A DNA stretch of 64,000 nt from an uncultured Methylococcales bacterium (lineage in GTDB: Bacteria > Pseudomonadota > Gammaproteobacteria > Methylococcales > Methylomonadaceae): positions 1 to 64,000 of the forward strand of contig CAIUVX010000196.1 in NCBI GenBank assembly GCA_903902705.1, given 5' to 3'. Shown here piece by piece: positions 21,942 to 29,519 of this stretch (within the stretch, counting starts at the first letter, position 1; every line of letters begins with the position of its first letter). A model generated the notes under the pieces. That model was not told where the DNA came from. It saw only the letters and a list, made by a program, of their open reading frames with translations, and did no database searches. The translations under genes and the position numbers were made by a program.

Positions 21942-22280
21942 ATGAAAAAAATCAATAAATCCCCCTTAGCTGCGGCAATGGGCGTTGCTTTTATGTCAAC
22001 ATTTGCAGTAACAGCAGCAAATGCAGAAGCCAATCCATTTGGCATCAGCGAATTATCACAAGGCTATATGCAGGTTGCTGAGGCTGATAAAGCCGCAGAA
22101 ATGAAGTGTGGCGCAAACATGAAAATGGATGACAACGCTGCTAAACCAAAACTACCTGAAGGTGCGTGTGCGGGCGCAAAACACATTGAAGGTGTCGTTC
22201 ATCCTGATGCCAAAGCGACAGAAGACAAATCAAGCACGAAAACACCAGAAGCTCAACCTGAAACTAAAGACGTTAAATAG
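21942..22280 (+). CDS. HvfA/bufferin-type metallophore precursor 1
   Basis: This small exported precursor of a ribosomally made, MNIO-modified metallophore has a signal peptide (PLAAAMGVAFMSTFAVTAA, cleavage near ANA-EA). Residues 33-47 (NPFGISELSQGYMQV) are shared with the next gene and could be the maturase recognition part. The core has two cysteines in MKCG and EGACAG contexts, as in HvfA-like peptides whose Cys-Gly units become copper-binding oxazolone or thiooxazole groups. The tail is Lys/Glu/Thr-rich. It is 112 residues, with AGGA eight bases before ATG. A short hairpin (21875-21895) lies in the upstream region. Confidence 0.75.
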   Translation: MKKINKSPLAAAMGVAFMSTFAVTAANAEANPFGISELSQGYMQVAEADKAAEMKCGANMKMDDNAAKPKLPEGACAGAKHIEGVVHPDAKATEDKSSTKTPEAQPETKDVK

Positions 22281-22288
22281 GAATCATA

Positions 22289-22768
22289 ATGAAGAAAATT
22301 AATAAAACCCCCTTAGCTGCGGCAATGGGCGTTGCTTTTATGTCAACATTTGCAGTAACAGCAGCAAATGCAGAAGCCAATCCATTCGGTATGACTGAGC
22401 TATCACAAGGTTATATGCAAGTTGCAGAAGCAGAAATGAAATGTGGCGCGAACATGAAAATGGATGATGCCCACGCCAAAATGCCTGAAGCTGCTTGTGC
22501 AGGTAAAAAAGCCGATGATGCAAAACCTGCTGATACTACAGCGACTGATACCAAAGCTCCAGAAGCCTCATGTGGCAACATGATGGAAGATGGCAAAATG
22601 AAAAAAGGTATGGAAGCGTCTTGCGGCGAAATGATGAAAGGCAAAGAAGGCGCGTGCGGCATGATGTCATCTGGTGATACCATGAAAATGCCAGAAAATA
22701 AAGCCACAAAGTTAGTAAACAAACCAACAGGAACTAAAGTAGTACCCTACGTTCCCGCTGCTAAATAA
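22289..22768 (+). CDS. HvfA/bufferin-type metallophore precursor 2, Cys/Met-rich
   Basis: This is the second precursor, eight bases after the first. Its signal peptide and first 15 mature residues are nearly identical to those of precursor 1, even at DNA level. The core is larger, with five cysteines: MKCG, AACAG, ASCGN, ASCGE and GACGM. Each lies near Met and Glu (EASCGNMM, EASCGEMM, EGACGMM), a spacing close to the EGKCG repeats of HvfA. Met-rich stretches suggest copper binding in the periplasm. It is 159 residues. The MNIO maturase follows after 132 bases that contain two hairpins. Confidence 0.8.
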   Translation: MKKINKTPLAAAMGVAFMSTFAVTAANAEANPFGMTELSQGYMQVAEAEMKCGANMKMDDAHAKMPEAACAGKKADDAKPADTTATDTKAPEASCGNMMEDGKMKKGMEASCGEMMKGKEGACGMMSSGDTMKMPENKATKLVNKPTGTKVVPYVPAAK

Positions 22769-22784
22769 GCGTTTTATGTCGTAA

Positions 22785-22811
22785 ATTGGGTTAGCCTCAA
22801 GCGTACCCAAT
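22785..22811 (+). terminator. Hairpin between precursor and maturase genes
   Basis: ATTGGGT pairs with ACCCAAT around a 13-base loop and is followed by ATTTTTACG. It starts 17 bases after the precursor 2 stop. It may act as a partial terminator, giving more precursor than maturase transcript. Confidence 0.5.
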
Positions 22812-22825
22812 ATTTTTACGATTGT

Positions 22826-22865
22826 GTTGGGTTACGCTGTTCGATAAGCTCACAGCTAACCCAAC
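22826..22865. repeat. GTTGGGTTA/TAACCCAAC hairpin repeat
   Basis: Nine-base arms plus an inner GCTGT/ACAGC stem form a strong hairpin just before the maturase gene. The same arms occur at 56346-56374, so this is a dispersed repeat family. Confidence 0.6.
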
Positions 22866-22900
22866 CCACTTTCTCTCTCATTACACTAATAGGTGTTCTC

Positions 22901-23752
22901 ATGGACACAATCCAAAATCTTGTTCATGGTGCTGGTTTAGGCTTACGGCGCAGTTTTCTAAGTGAAATTATTGTCAATCCACCTGAAACCGTTGGTTTTT
23001 ACGAAGTTGCCCCCGAAAATTGGATGACTATCGGTGGCAAATATGGCAAACAGTTTCGTGCAATGACTGAACGCTTTGATTTTATTGCCCACGGCTTATC
23101 GTTATCCATCGGCAGCACCGACCCATTAGATGAAACCTTCGTGCGCAATATTAAACAATTCATGCGTGAACACGGCATAAAATTTTACAGCGAGCATTTA
23201 AGCTATTGCAGTAAAAACGGGCATTTATATGACCTTATGCCTATACCATTTACTAGCGACGCAGTTCATCACGTTGCCGCTAGAATTCGGCGCGTACAAG
23301 ACATATTAGAGCAAAAAATCGCCATAGAAAATGCCTCCTACTACGCGGCTATGGGACAAGAAATGAGTGAAATCGACTTTTTTAATGCCGTAATTGAAGA
23401 AGCCGATTGTGATGTGCTTATCGACATCAACAATATTTATGTCAATAGCGTCAATCACGGTTATGATGCTGACGCTTTTTTAACAGCCATGCCTGCACAC
23501 CGTATCGCTTACGCCCATATTGCGGGACATTATATGGAAGCCGAAGATTTTTTAGTCGATACCCACGGCGCAGATATTATTGATCCCGTATGGAAATTAC
23601 TAGGCAAAGCCTACCAACTACACGGGGTATTCCCCACTTTATTAGAACGTGATTTCAACATTCCAGCCTTATCAGAACTTATTAAAGAAGTACAAACCAT
23701 CAGCCAGATTCAACACACATGGAAAAATCAACATGAAAAACAATCTGCTTAG
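22901..23752 (+). CDS. MNIO-family (DUF692) RiPP maturase, HvfB/BufB-like
   Basis: This multinuclear non-heme iron oxidase, in described relatives, uses O2 to convert precursor cysteines into copper-binding heterocycles. The TIM-barrel shows the expected iron ligands: HGLSLSIG, FYSEHLSYC, IENASYY, DINNIYVNSVNHG, YAHIAGHY, DTHGADI and LLERDF. The length of 283 residues is typical. Position between two Cys-rich precursors and a DUF2063 partner makes the assignment firm. Its last 20 bases overlap the partner gene. Confidence 0.92.
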   Translation: MDTIQNLVHGAGLGLRRSFLSEIIVNPPETVGFYEVAPENWMTIGGKYGKQFRAMTERFDFIAHGLSLSIGSTDPLDETFVRNIKQFMREHGIKFYSEHLSYCSKNGHLYDLMPIPFTSDAVHHVAARIRRVQDILEQKIAIENASYYAAMGQEMSEIDFFNAVIEEADCDVLIDINNIYVNSVNHGYDADAFLTAMPAHRIAYAHIAGHYMEAEDFLVDTHGADIIDPVWKLLGKAYQLHGVFPTLLERDFNIPALSELIKEVQTISQIQHTWKNQHEKQSA

Positions 23753-24482
23753 TTTTGACAGCAAACAACGTGAATTTGTCGCCTATATTCGCGACCCTGA
23801 AAATAATCCCGCCCCTGCTGATGCTCCACAGCAGCGGGTAGCAATGTATCGAGAACTTTTTTTCAATAACATCAATGGTTTTCTTACCAGTAACTTTCCC
23901 GTATTACGCACACTGCTCAATGATAAACAATGGTTTGAATTAGTTCAGGATTTTTTTGCTAATCATGTCAGTAAAACGCCCTATTTTGCCGAAATACCCG
24001 AAGAATTTTTAGCTTTTTTAGAAAATGAACGTAACAATGCCCGTGATTATCCATTTATACTGGAACTGGCGCATTATGAATGGGTAGAAATGGCAGTTGC
24101 CATCTCCAAAGAAGAGCTAGTCATTAATCAGACAGAGCTACAATTAGACTCTCGGATACAATTATCGCCGCTCGTATGGCTGTTAGTTTATCAATACCCC
24201 GTCCATAAAATATCGCCTGATTTTCTGCCTGACGTGTTACCCCTGCACCCCACTTGCCTGATTGTGTACCGTGATGACCACGATGAAGTACATTTTATGG
24301 AAATCACTCCGCTAACTTACCGCTTATTAGCGATGATTCAAGAACAAGAAAATATACGCGTCACCGATTGCTTACAACGAATGACCCAAGAAACCCAGCA
24401 TCCTAATCCCGAACTAATTAAAACCGCTGGCTTACAAATACTGACCGAATTAGCTGAGAAAATGATTGTTACCTTAATGTAG
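23733..24482 (+). CDS. DUF2063 maturase partner, HvfC/BufC-like
   Basis: This partner protein brings the precursor to the MNIO enzyme in HvfABC/BufABC systems. ATG 23733 (MKNNLLSFDSKQREFVAYIR) is chosen; the open frame reaches back to 23649 inside the maturase, but the family begins at the QREF segment. The N-terminal DUF2063 helices (RVAMYRELFFNNINGFLTSN, FPVLRTLL) are followed by a second domain ending in a helix-rich stretch. It is 249 residues. No DoxX-like fourth gene (HvfD) follows; the next 308 bases hold only repeats. Confidence 0.88.
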   Translation: MKNNLLSFDSKQREFVAYIRDPENNPAPADAPQQRVAMYRELFFNNINGFLTSNFPVLRTLLNDKQWFELVQDFFANHVSKTPYFAEIPEEFLAFLENERNNARDYPFILELAHYEWVEMAVAISKEELVINQTELQLDSRIQLSPLVWLLVYQYPVHKISPDFLPDVLPLHPTCLIVYRDDHDEVHFMEITPLTYRLLAMIQEQENIRVTDCLQRMTQETQHPNPELIKTAGLQILTELAEKMIVTLM

Positions 24483-24522
24483 GACGCGTAATCTACACCT
24501 ACACATTCACTGCCGTTGTATC

Positions 24523-24664
24523 GTCATTCCAGCATGGATGCTGGAATCCAGTGCCAAGGATGGTATTACATTAATCAGAACCCTCGCTACGCTCTCCCTG
24601 TGACTGGATTCGCTTCGCGGTCTACGGCTCTGGCATCCCTGCCAGAATAACGTGTTTTATACAT
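24523..24664. repeat. Dispersed REP-like repeat, copy 2
   Basis: GTCATTCCAGCATGGATGCTGGAATCCAG-type palindrome, then CCAAGGATGG, an inner GACTGGATTCGCTTCGCGG segment, and ACGTGTTTTATA. It matches the block order at 1261-1337, with extra sequence in the middle. It fills most of the 308-base gap between the RiPP locus and the first sensor kinase. Confidence 0.6.
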
Positions 24665-24817
24665 ACGACAAATTACGATAAACTTACCTACTATCAGTTT
24701 TTAAACTAAAACTCAATTTACTAGCCTTAATGATGACCTGTAATGCACAAGAATGATTAGAAAAAAGCTACCCTCCCCCTCGCGTATATTGTGCCTGATG
24801 ATAATAGAAAAAAAGTT

Positions 24818-27800
24818 ATGAAAAACTTACTGTCTACGCTATTGCTTGGTTTTTTATTAATCATCAGTCCAAGTTATGGCGACGAAAAACCACTGATCGT
24901 TGGTAGTGAACAAGATTATCCACCGTTTGCCTTAGGTTTAACTGATGACACTGCCAGTGGTTTTACCGTCGAATTATGGCACAAAGTGGCAGAACAGAGT
25001 CATCTCAGCTCGATAGTTCGAGTAATGCCCTTTCATAAAGTGTTACAAGATTTTAAAGCAGGAAAAATAGACGTACTCATTAATTTAGCTCAATCAGATG
25101 AACGTCGGCAGTTTGTCGATTTCACCGTGCCTCATGTCATTATTCATGGAGCTATTTTCGTGTGCAACGATGAAAACAGCATTCACTCTGAAGCCGATTT
25201 AAACGATAAACGTATTATCGTTCTGAATGCCGATTTAGCTCATGATTATGCCGTCGCTAAGGGTTGGGAAAAACAACTGGTGCTAGTGGATACCTCTGAA
25301 GCAGGTTTTGAATTACTGGCTTCAGGTCAATACGACGCGCTGTTGTTGAGTAAATTATCAGGGCAGCAAACGCTACAAAAATTAGAGTTAACCCAGATTA
25401 TTAAAACGTTGCCTATTGAAGTAGGTTTTACCCAAAAATTTTCCTTTGCCGTGCATAAGGGGAATGCGGAATTATTGGCTAAAATTAACGAGGGTTTGGC
25501 ATTAACCAAGAGCAACGGCGTTTATGATGAACTGTATAACAAATGGTTTGGCGTTTATGAAGAAAAGGCATTGCTACCGTTACTGCTGATTTATCTCAAA
25601 CCCATTGCCATCGCTTTTCTGCTCATTATGGCTATTAGTTTTTATCAAAATAACCTTGAATACAAAAAATATGTACAGCGACTAAAAAACCATAAAGCCA
25701 GATTAGAAGCTGAAGCATTGGCAGATATTGCCGTGCGTAAAGGACTTCAAGTGGAGCTTCAAACGACACTAGCACGCATGAAAATGGCGATTACTGCGTT
25801 AAATGCAGGTATTTGGGTCTGGCGTTTCGACACCAACGAACTCATTTGGGATGATCGGATGCTCACACTTTACAATGTGTCAGAAAGTCTCCGAAAAACT
25901 CATTTTTACTACGATTTCTGGGTCTCCCGCCTTCATTGCGATGATAGAGAAAGAGCGATATCGTTAATCTTGGGCTGTGTTGCTGGCAGGAATTCATTTG
26001 ACACAGAATTTCGAGTGGTGCTTGATAATGGCGATATTCGCCATATTAATGCGGCGGCGGTACTGGAACGTGATGAAAATAACCAACCAGTACAAATGGT
26101 GGGGATCAATCTCGACATCACCGACCGTAAAGCCATCGAAACGCAAATTGTCGAACTCAACGCTTCTCTGGAAAAACAGGTGGAAATACGCACCTCAGAA
26201 CTCAACTTAGCATTGGAAGTCGCTAACACTGCCAATGCTGCCAAAACGGATTTTTTGGCGAATATGAGTCACGAAATTAGAACACCGATGAATGCCGTTA
26301 TCGGCTTGGCTTACCTAATACAAAAACAAGAGCTTAGCTTTGTTGTGCGCGACATGGTTAATAAAATTGACGACGCATCGCGTTCTCTACTGAATGTTAT
26401 TAATGAATGTCTGGATTTTTCAAAAATTGAGGCAAATCTTTTAGAAATAGAATACGTCCCTTTCCGTCTTTCCGATATGTTGGGCAATCTAGCCAGCATA
26501 ATGACTACTCTTGTTGGTGTAAAGCCCATTGAAGTCTGTATTGCGCCTGCGCCGAAAGGTGCGGATTATCTGTATGGCGACCCTATTCGCTTAGAGCAGG
26601 TATTGGTTAATCTGATTAGCAATGCTATCAAATTCACAGAAAAAGGCGAAGTCATTGTTAAAGTTCTCGTTATCGAGGTGGTAAATGATAAAATCTCTTT
26701 ACGTTTCTCAGTGCAGGATACAGGTTGTGGTATTTCGCCAGACAAGTACGAAAGCATTTTCCTACCTTTTACTCAAGCCGATAATTCAACCACTCGCATT
26801 TATGGTGGTACAGGATTGGGGCTTACCATTAGCCGCCGCTTGGTCGATTTAATGGATGGTGATTTACAAGTCAACAGCGAAGTTGGTGCGGGTTCTGACT
26901 TTTTCTTTGACTTGATACTAACCGCGAGCAACATAAGAAATCAGACACCGTCTCCCTTACCTGCCCAAAACATTCTGATTGTTGAAGATAATGCCGTAGC
27001 GCGTAGGCTACTTGAAGCCACTGTGATTAGCCTTGGCTGGAATGCTTATGTGCTGGACTCGGATGAAAAAGCATTACAGGTATTTACTGAAAAGGTGGGA
27101 GATTATTTTAACTGTTTGCTATTGGATTATGATATGCCTGACATCAATAGCACTCAGGTCATGACTCAGATTCAACAACAGTTTGGTAAAGAACGCTGCC
27201 TGATTATTCTCATGGTGAACAACAGTGATAGAGAGATTCTATTAACGCAATCTTCTGACAATAATCTTTTTGATGCTATTATCTCCAAACCAGTCACTGG
27301 TTTATCGTTAACTAATGCGATAGTGGAAGCCAAAATTAGACGCGGTGAATTAAAGCCTATCGTTAACCAGTCTCTGACTAATCAACAACTAACAGGATTA
27401 AATTTGCTGGTGGTTGATGACAGTGAGATTAATCGAGACGTTGCGCGGCAAATTCTTACGGGTGAAGGAGCGACTATCGAGGTTGCAGAGAATGGAATTG
27501 ATGCCCTTAATCAGCTGATGGCTAGACCAGACTACTTTCATGTCGTGCTGATGGACGTGCAGATGCCCGTTATGGATGGCTACACCGCGACTCAACAAAT
27601 TCGCTCTTTGCCTGAACTACAACACTTACCCATCATTGCACTGACGGCAGGCGCATTCAAAAGTCAGCGCATTGCTGCACTTGAAGCAGGAATGAATGAT
27701 TTTATTCCCAAGCCCTTTGAAGTCGATGAGTTAGTGGAATGCGTTAAACGACTCGCTCAACGTCCCGCCGTATTGGAATTATGCGGTGGTGGGTGTCCGC

Positions 27801-28456
27801 AGTTAGTGGAGTGCATAAAACGACTCGCTCAACGAGATACACCCGCAAAAGTTATTCCACAGACACTGCTACTCGCTAATGAGGCGATTCCCTTAATCGA
27901 TGTAGATAATGGGTTAAAAAAATGGCAGGACTTAAAGCTTTATAAAAAGAACTTACAACTATTTTTAGTGCAACAAGAGCAAACTCACGAAGTCCTTCAT
28001 AAAAAATTATTAAGTGACGATAAAACAGCGGCACTGGCAATCACCCATAAACTGTTGGGTGCAGCGGGTGCTTTGTCGCTAAAACGTATTGTTCACTTTG
28101 TCAGAGAACTTGATGAGACTATTCATGAACAGGGTAATATTGAGACAGCATTCCTCGGTTTTACCACCGTTTTGTCACAAACACTTGATGCAATCAACGT
28201 TTACCTGAACAGTGAAATACAGCAGCAAAGCACGCAAGCAACGGTTGAGGTTAGCAATATTTTGATTATCAAAGAACTGGAACGGCTGATTACCCTGCTG
28301 GACACTGATGATATCGATCTTATCGAATCTCAGCTTTCCATACTAGAGGGCATACTACCCAAAGCAGCATTTAACAAATTAATCACTGCTGTTGATAATT
28401 TCGATTTTCGCGGTGCAGAAACTATCGCCACTACCTTACTCACTGAATTTTTTTAA
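24818..28456 (+). CDS. Hybrid sensor histidine kinase with periplasmic substrate-binding (SBP3) sensor
   Basis: This membrane sensor kinase probably detects a small ligand through a bacterial solute-binding domain (residues about 25-240; signal peptide LLSTLLLGFLLIISPSYG). A membrane helix follows (about 255-277), then a PAS domain (about 320-440), HisKA with SHEIRTP (His 485), an ATPase domain (GGTGLGLTISRRL), a first receiver (ILIVEDNAV, LLLDYDMPD), a second receiver with Asp 913 (VLMDVQMPVMDG) and an Hpt domain with His 1077 (THKLLGAAGAL). ATG 24818 starts the signal peptide; a GTG at 24791 is possible. A small tandem duplication (LVECVKRLAQR / LVECIKRLAQR) lies between the second receiver and the Hpt domain. 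It heads the signalling array. Confidence 0.88.
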   Translation: MKNLLSTLLLGFLLIISPSYGDEKPLIVGSEQDYPPFALGLTDDTASGFTVELWHKVAEQSHLSSIVRVMPFHKVLQDFKAGKIDVLINLAQSDERRQFVDFTVPHVIIHGAIFVCNDENSIHSEADLNDKRIIVLNADLAHDYAVAKGWEKQLVLVDTSEAGFELLASGQYDALLLSKLSGQQTLQKLELTQIIKTLPIEVGFTQKFSFAVHKGNAELLAKINEGLALTKSNGVYDELYNKWFGVYEEKALLPLLLIYLKPIAIAFLLIMAISFYQNNLEYKKYVQRLKNHKARLEAEALADIAVRKGLQVELQTTLARMKMAITALNAGIWVWRFDTNELIWDDRMLTLYNVSESLRKTHFYYDFWVSRLHCDDRERAISLILGCVAGRNSFDTEFRVVLDNGDIRHINAAAVLERDENNQPVQMVGINLDITDRKAIETQIVELNASLEKQVEIRTSELNLALEVANTANAAKTDFLANMSHEIRTPMNAVIGLAYLIQKQELSFVVRDMVNKIDDASRSLLNVINECLDFSKIEANLLEIEYVPFRLSDMLGNLASIMTTLVGVKPIEVCIAPAPKGADYLYGDPIRLEQVLVNLISNAIKFTEKGEVIVKVLVIEVVNDKISLRFSVQDTGCGISPDKYESIFLPFTQADNSTTRIYGGTGLGLTISRRLVDLMDGDLQVNSEVGAGSDFFFDLILTASNIRNQTPSPLPAQNILIVEDNAVARRLLEATVISLGWNAYVLDSDEKALQVFTEKVGDYFNCLLLDYDMPDINSTQVMTQIQQQFGKERCLIILMVNNSDREILLTQSSDNNLFDAIISKPVTGLSLTNAIVEAKIRRGELKPIVNQSLTNQQLTGLNLLVVDDSEINRDVARQILTGEGATIEVAENGIDALNQLMARPDYFHVVLMDVQMPVMDGYTATQQIRSLPELQHLPIIALTAGAFKSQRIAALEAGMNDFIPKPFEVDELVECVKRLAQRPAVLELCGGGCPQLVECIKRLAQRDTPAKVIPQTLLLANEAIPLIDVDNGLKKWQDLKLYKKNLQLFLVQQEQTHEVLHKKLLSDDKTAALAITHKLLGAAGALSLKRIVHFVRELDETIHEQGNIETAFLGFTTVLSQTLDAINVYLNSEIQQQSTQATVEVSNILIIKELERLITLLDTDDIDLIESQLSILEGILPKAAFNKLITAVDNFDFRGAETIATTLLTEFF

Positions 28457-28475
28457 TCCTTCAAAGGTATAAACT

Positions 28476-29519
28476 ATGTCACACAACACCATACTGTGTG
28501 TTGATGATGAGCCTATTAATTTGGGTTTATTACGCAACATCTTACAAAAAGACTATAAATTACTGTTTGCCTGTTCGGGTATTGAAGCCTTGAAAGCGGC
28601 AATAAAACATAATCCTTCGTTGATTTTACTCGATGTAGAGATGCCTAATATGAATGGCTTTGAGCTTATTAGCATTCTTAAATCCGATTCAAGAACAGAA
28701 CATATCCCCATCATTTTTGTGACCTCCTACATTGAGGAAGAGTATGAAAAAACGGGCTTTGAGTTAGGCTGCGTTGACTATATCAACAAGCCTATTTCTC
28801 CAGGTATTGTCCTTGCTCGTGTACGGGCGCATTTGTCCTTAGTAAAAGTCACTCAACTTGAAGCCAGCTATCGAGATGCTATTTATATGCTGGGTGAAGC
28901 GGGGCATTATAACGATAGCGATACGGGCTTACACATCTGGCGAGTGGGGGCATACAGCCATTTGTTGGCAAAGGCTATCGGATGGAGTGAAGATCGGGCA
29001 GCGTTAATGGAAATAGCTGCCCCCATGCACGATACAGGAAAAATTGGCATACCCTGTATAATCCTACAAAAACCAGACCGACTCAACGCAGAAGAATCAC
29101 TCATCATGCAGCAACATTCGCGTATTGGTTATAACATTTTAAGTAAGAGTGACGCGCCCTTATTTCAACTAGCCGCAGAGATTGCACTCAATCATCATGA
29201 AAAATGGGATGGTAGTGGCTATCCTAATGGTCTTGCTGGAGAAGCGATACCAAAATCAGCCCGTATCGTTGCCATTGCCGATGTCTTTGACGCACTGTCT
29301 ATGGCTCGTCCTTATAAAGAGGCGTGGTCAACAGAGTCTATTTTGTTTTCAATACAAGAGGCGGCTGGAAGTCATTTCGACAAAAGATTGGTCGCTGTTT
29401 TTATGGCAATCATGCCGCAAATTCTGGAAATCAAGGCTGAATGGGATAACCGTTCAGTAGAGGACGGCTTTGCAGTGCATAACTACTCACAATGTGAGGA
29501 TATAGCTAACGCACAATAA
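28476..29519 (+). CDS. REC-HD-GYP response regulator 1 (c-di-GMP phosphodiesterase)
   Basis: A receiver domain (Asp 53 in LLDVEMPNMNG) is joined to an HD-GYP domain that in this family hydrolyses cyclic di-GMP. The catalytic HD is HDTGKIG (185-186) and the signature is HHEKWDGSGYP (GYP at 248-250). All key residues are present, so the enzyme should be active when phosphorylated, probably by the kinase 19 bases upstream. It is 347 residues. The last codons run into the first copy of the palindromic repeat. Confidence 0.92.
   Translation: MSHNTILCVDDEPINLGLLRNILQKDYKLLFACSGIEALKAAIKHNPSLILLDVEMPNMNGFELISILKSDSRTEHIPIIFVTSYIEEEYEKTGFELGCVDYINKPISPGIVLARVRAHLSLVKVTQLEASYRDAIYMLGEAGHYNDSDTGLHIWRVGAYSHLLAKAIGWSEDRAALMEIAAPMHDTGKIGIPCIILQKPDRLNAEESLIMQQHSRIGYNILSKSDAPLFQLAAEIALNHHEKWDGSGYPNGLAGEAIPKSARIVAIADVFDALSMARPYKEAWSTESILFSIQEAAGSHFDKRLVAVFMAIMPQILEIKAEWDNRSVEDGFAVHNYSQCEDIANAQ

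Follow-up and report, generated by a model that had tools for sequence, protein, structure and literature searches.

A divergent HvfABC-type operon with tandem precursors in a Methylococcaceae genus

Methane oxidation is limited by copper handling, and the main enzyme of methanotrophs needs copper; to our knowledge, work on copper peptides in these bacteria has mostly concerned methanobactin. A 64,000-nt window (the whole stretch of DNA analyzed here) from an uncultured Methylococcales bacterium contains, at 21942-24482, four co-directional genes on the + strand encoding two small exported Cys-containing proteins (A1 and A2), an MNIO (DUF692) enzyme, and a DUF2063 partner (Table 1). This arrangement raises the questions of which known family the cassette belongs to and whether a single maturase would serve two different precursors. 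Our main reading, to which we assign a probability of roughly 0.8, is that of an HvfABC-type (Buf_EGKCG/captophorin) RiPP operon acting in copper buffering, the precursor of which was tandemly duplicated in one Methylococcaceae genus.

Table 1 Features of the cassette and their coordinates in the window.
Feature	Coordinates	Strand	Description
Precursor A1	21942..22280	+	112 aa; signal peptide and leader NPFGISELSQGYMQVAE, followed by one Cys in EMKCG and one in EGACA; L032 and L034 have orthologues
Precursor A2	22289..22768	+	159 aa; signal peptide and leader as in A1; five Cys; Met-rich spacers
A2-MNIO gap	22769..22900	+	strong stem-loops (MFE z -4.2), then ribosome-site segment AGGTGTTCTC
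MNIO (DUF692), HvfB family	22901..23752	+	283 aa; NF003818, PF05114, and PDB 3BWW matches
HvfC partner (DUF2063 and NGO1945 C-terminal domain)	23733..24482	+	249 aa; NF050145, PF09836, PF22106, and PDB 3DEE matches
Identical 79-nt stretch, signal-peptide region	21961..22039 (A1) = 22308-22386 (A2)	+	

The preliminary description had recognized an MNIO and DUF2063 cassette, and both proteins indeed exceed the curated cut-offs of their families: the MNIO scores 440 bits against the HvfB model NF003818 (cut-off 360), as well as 350 bits against PF05114, and the partner scores 302.8 bits against the HvfC model NF050145 (cut-off 142), as well as matching PF09836 and PF22106. Their nearest solved relatives by sequence are PDB 3BWW (E 2e-72) and PDB 3DEE (E 2e-11), respectively, both of which the captophorin paper assigns to the captophorin class (PMC13097082). 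For HvfC we took the ATG at 23733 as the start, overlapping the MNIO stop by 20 nt; the open reading frame as listed starts at a GTG further upstream, and the profile alignment begins at residue 12 of the reading from ATG 23733. No second MNIO was found in the genome, and the cassette shows no evident copper-regulator gene. The operon is genuine, correctly read, and of a known and widely described kind.

The MNIO displays the motifs Arg16-Arg17 (GLGLRRSF), DINN, VDTHG, and ERDF (LLERDFN). In FonB, Arg15, Arg16, and Phe250 shape the selectivity for Lys-Cys substrates and Asp249 is the proposed catalytic base, the Phe of Lys-Cys enzymes being replaced by Asp in Cys-Lys enzymes (PMC13097082). The window MNIO keeps Arg-Arg and Asp-Phe at the Lys-Cys-type places, with the Phe kept in 76 of 78 relatives. 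VDTHG and DINN would correspond to the site-3 iron ligands of HvfB (PMC13419390), a match at the level of motifs, without explicit structural alignment. The Phe also bears on the idea that the product is a bufferin of the Buf1 (DUF2282) or Buf2 type. Such systems have the MNIO/DUF2063 core in common with the window, and the enzyme reaches 266.6 bits with the BufB model, but this score is below the cut-off of 310, Phe and not Asp follows the catalytic Asp, and neither the precursors nor the genome contain a DUF2282 (PF10048) match, all of which makes a bufferin extremely unlikely. Buf1 membership was rejected for want of PF10048, and Buf2 membership on the BufB score and on the Cys content of the precursors (2 and 5 vs 6 or 12 conserved Cys).

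A DoxX-like fourth gene had been reported missing, and none is present beside the cassette. The sole DoxX of the genome is encoded on another contig beside genes that read as encoding a pirin-like protein and a regulator of the LysR type, and was therefore rejected as a split fourth gene. Among relatives, inspection of clustered ORFs (by eye, not by profile) showed nothing DoxX-like immediately after the partner gene, and the idea of a conserved downstream partner gene was dropped, the neighbors being variable. The characterized fon cluster also lacks DoxX (PMC13097082), and this absence is ordinary in Methylococcaceae. Downstream of hvfC, the intergenic region 24520-24660 contains an inverted repeat (CATTCCAGCATGGATGCTGGAATCCAG) that looks like another dispersed repeat, and 24791-29519 encodes a large hybrid sensor kinase, the N-terminal domain of which is solute-binding-like, and after it a response regulator containing an HD-GYP-like domain (both named by eye).

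The gap between A2 and the MNIO gene (22769-22900) folds with a z of -4.2, and stem-loops of different sequence, commonly GGAGGGCATGA/TCATGCCCTCC and without a T-run, are found at the same place in most Methylococcaceae relatives. In 29 of 61 gaps, none of the 30 shuffles equals the best stem; in the window itself there is only a tie. Part of the window copy (22825-22869) belongs to a dispersed intergenic repeat of the GTTGGGTTACGC type that occurs six more times in the genome, and the ribosome-site segment AGGTGTTCTC recurs in relatives. The stem-loops could plausibly keep precursor output above enzyme output; searches for sigma-70 promoters and Rfam families gave no useful match. At seven loci, mostly of Methylomonas (L069, L073, L080, L088, L107, L110, and L111), precursor and MNIO genes are separated by ~ 600 nt, and in the four of these gaps that were read out (L069, L088, L110, and L111) a DedA-like membrane protein, named by eye, is encoded.

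The Cys counts given in the preliminary description, two for A1 (positions 56 and 76) and five for A2 (positions 52, 70, 95, 112, and 123), are correct. All seven residues fit the pattern E-x-[KAS]-C-[GA], those of A2 being set in EMKCG, EAACA, EASCG, EASCG, and EGACG; the probability of finding Glu at -3 of every A2 Cys by chance, calculated from the Glu content of A2 itself, is ~ 4e-6. The E-x-x-C-G setting said to prevail accounts for five of the seven, the remaining two being E-x-x-C-A. Many Met residues had also been noted, which is true of A2 (16 in the mature part) but less so of A1 (4). Both proteins look disordered. None of the seven Cys lies in EGKCG, the mark of the strict EGKCG subgroup; because the captophorin class includes other 5-mers (PMC13097082), this bars the precursors from the strict subgroup only.

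Are these proteins then a separate precursor type? Neither A1 nor A2 gave a meaningful match to Pfam or NCBIfam models, and the comparison with HvfA profiles that had been proposed earlier left both unmatched at E 1, but succeeded for their homologues: the 27 aligned members include 16 with a match to NF050188 and 15 with one to NF050137, these models being NCBIfam HvfA families, with a best E of 1.2e-13. A clear homologue occupies the precursor place in nearly all relatives with intact upstream sequence, and a family profile derived from the alignment found precursors in 85 of 274 class genomes. At the 29 distant loci examined, the precursors are EGKCG-type or close to it; their leader, where printed, mostly resembles NPFxMxELSSGYM, and the motif NPF..(E/D)L..GY is common to A1, A2, and the class-wide EGKCG-type precursors shown. 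Glu is found at -3 in 779 of the 901 Cys of relatives, and Gly or Ala at +1 in 875. In the Methylococcaceae set, the commonest settings are EGACG (162), EGKCG (102), EGSCG (89), and EGACA (87), counts in which some genomes appear twice since named and unnamed collections overlap; they indicate that the relaxed motif is a trait of the whole family, not of the window genome alone. The original impression of sequences close to, and not identical with, HvfA EGKCG repeats thus holds. By leader homology and EGKCG-carrying orthologues, A1 and A2 are divergent HvfA-family members rather than a separate type, and the locus belongs, as judged from sequence, to the known HvfA / Buf_EGKCG / captophorin family, within which it forms a divergent branch in Methylococcaceae.

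The oxazolin operon HvfABC of Haemophilus influenzae (PMC13419390) is similar in its HvfB and HvfC families, matched above curated cut-offs, and in its exported precursor with E-x-x-C-G units, whereas in the window there are two precursors and not one, EGKCG does not occur in its exact form, and the spacers are Met-rich. The fontiphorin cluster fonABC of the captophorins (PMC13097082) is an equally minimal precursor-MNIO-DUF2063 cassette without DoxX, with the same Arg-Arg and Asp-Phe active-site residues, but FonA is a single precursor with EGKCG repeats. Signal peptide, A-B-C order, and DUF2063 partner are also those of the Buf_EGKCG/oxazolin group (PMC12452194), E-x-[KAS]-C-[GA] taking the place of EGKCG in the window. 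The bulbicupramide cluster mmrABC of Microbulbifer (PMC12538549) is likewise a lineage-conserved A-B-C cluster with a conserved leader and a variable Cys number; it differs by its EGKCG cassettes and single precursor. Methanobactin MbnABC, the copper-binding product of which is known from methanotrophs, has the MNIO superfamily in common with the window, but membership was rejected: the MbnB model gives 52 bits, far below its cut-off of 325, the partner is HvfC instead of MbnC, and the precursor has a signal peptide for export. The machinery as such was known before, the duplicated, divergent peptides alone being particular to the genus.

For homologous systems, a 4-Da loss per Cys, 5-thiooxazole formation, Cu(I) binding, and a DUF2063 partner have been described (PMC13097082, PMC12538549, PMC13419390). 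By analogy, we infer the chemistry, the copper binding, and the processing of both precursors by one maturase. HvfC would recognize the leader NPFGxxELSQGYMQVAE common to A1 and A2, HvfB would act in the cytoplasm, oxidizing the x-Cys pair of each E-x-[KAS]-C-[GA] unit to a 5-thiooxazole, Sec would export the modified, signal-peptide-bearing proteins, and the products would bind Cu(I) in the periplasm, resulting in copper buffering. A2, with five sites, would be the main carrier and A1, with two, a short carrier. Ala was accepted by FonBC at position 3 and also at position 5 (PMC13097082), and both variations are seen in the A1/A2 motifs.

The identical 79-nt stretch in their signal-peptide regions marks A1 and A2 as duplicates; they are 68% identical in the family alignment. 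The idea of a separate third precursor gene at another site was rejected, the genome search having returned just these two, as was strong gene conversion between the leaders, for which the informative sites are too few (two join the paralogues of one genome and three join orthologues). The two sites of A1 are 20 residues apart, without adjacency, and the protein lacks the repeat-rich C-terminus kept by most other family members. Given that FonBC was inactive on a one-repeat substrate and required two repeats side by side (PMC13097082), the maturase may act poorly on A1. A2 could then be the sole true metallophore and A1, with one of its two separated Cys in EGACA, a shortened duplicate with little or no modification, acting at most as a maturase competitor or regulator, or as a plain exported thiol/Met protein. 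However, A1 is under constraint: it is 95% identical to its orthologue in L032, with a dN/dS of 0.12 (0.07 for the MNIO and 0.20 for A2 against the same locus) and both Cys kept, and its copy in L034 and L037 has four Cys. This conservation suggests that A1 is probably functional, and we consider a sole A2 metallophore somewhat improbable. It also renders the earlier proposal of two metallophores with different copper capacity compatible with the evidence. A more ambitious version, in which the duplicates of this genus, served by one maturase, have diverged into a store of high capacity (A2) and a carrier of low capacity (A1), and in which the cassette handles copper in the periplasm of nearly all gammaproteobacterial methanotrophs, is unlikely.

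The window genome belongs to the Methylococcaceae and to the genus that contains Crenothrix sp. D3; by MNIO identity, its close loci are those of a LacPavin MAG (95%) and of Crenothrix sp. D3 (87%). Tandem precursors are present at four loci of the genus (the window, L032, L034, and L037; L003 in G070 and L005 in G048 are apparently L032 and L034 again) and absent from L033 (Crenothrix D3) and L036, with L041 outside the comparison as it lies at a contig end. They also occur at two of 29 sampled distant loci, L122 and L127, which are unrelated, and such genes are not new, having been reported in bufferin clusters (PMC12452194). On the maturase-gene tree, the tandem loci need two changes, either a single ancestral duplication followed by loss or duplication on two occasions. 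In both subgroups, the A2 copies have the shortened VAEAEMKCG junction and the KVxPYVPAAK end, which would favor one duplication with later loss. In L036, a close relative, a Cys-free Ala/Pro-rich exported protein of 102 aa is encoded between the precursor and MNIO genes, at -407 to -83 nt relative to the latter.

HvfB-type enzymes are near-universal in Methylococcaceae. An MNIO match at E 1e-40 or better was found in 116 of 121 genomes of the family, the best match being at least 67% identical in all but one of the 116, and HvfB exceeded its model cut-off in 93 of 274 sampled class genomes; as these two thresholds differ, the enrichment is strong, not exact. The lineage-specific details, i.e. 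the duplicated precursors, the relaxed motif, and this near-universality, are modest. The pMMO of this family needs copper, and the prevalence of the cassette could also reflect a product for copper acquisition or delivery, methanobactin-like and serving methane oxidation, rather than for protection from excess copper; lake copper scarcity is a studied condition for methanotrophs (PMC6423226). Yet excess metal and oxidative stress are the described inducers of captophorin pathways (PMC13097082), the cassette has no neighboring transporter gene, and the assembly of the window genome (G000, 99.8% complete) contains no match to pmoA (PF02461) or to the sMMO type (PF02332), so that an acquisition role appears quite improbable. 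PF02461 is present in four of eight genomes of the genus, and G000 could have an assembly gap or be a non-methanotrophic member.

With copper buffering as the preferred reading, a near-universal HvfABC-type system in Methylococcaceae would, if true, represent a second copper peptide in methanotrophs beside methanobactin. The tandem precursors would provide a natural test of the relaxation of maturase specificity, since one enzyme pair meets two substrates that differ in the number and spacing of their sites.
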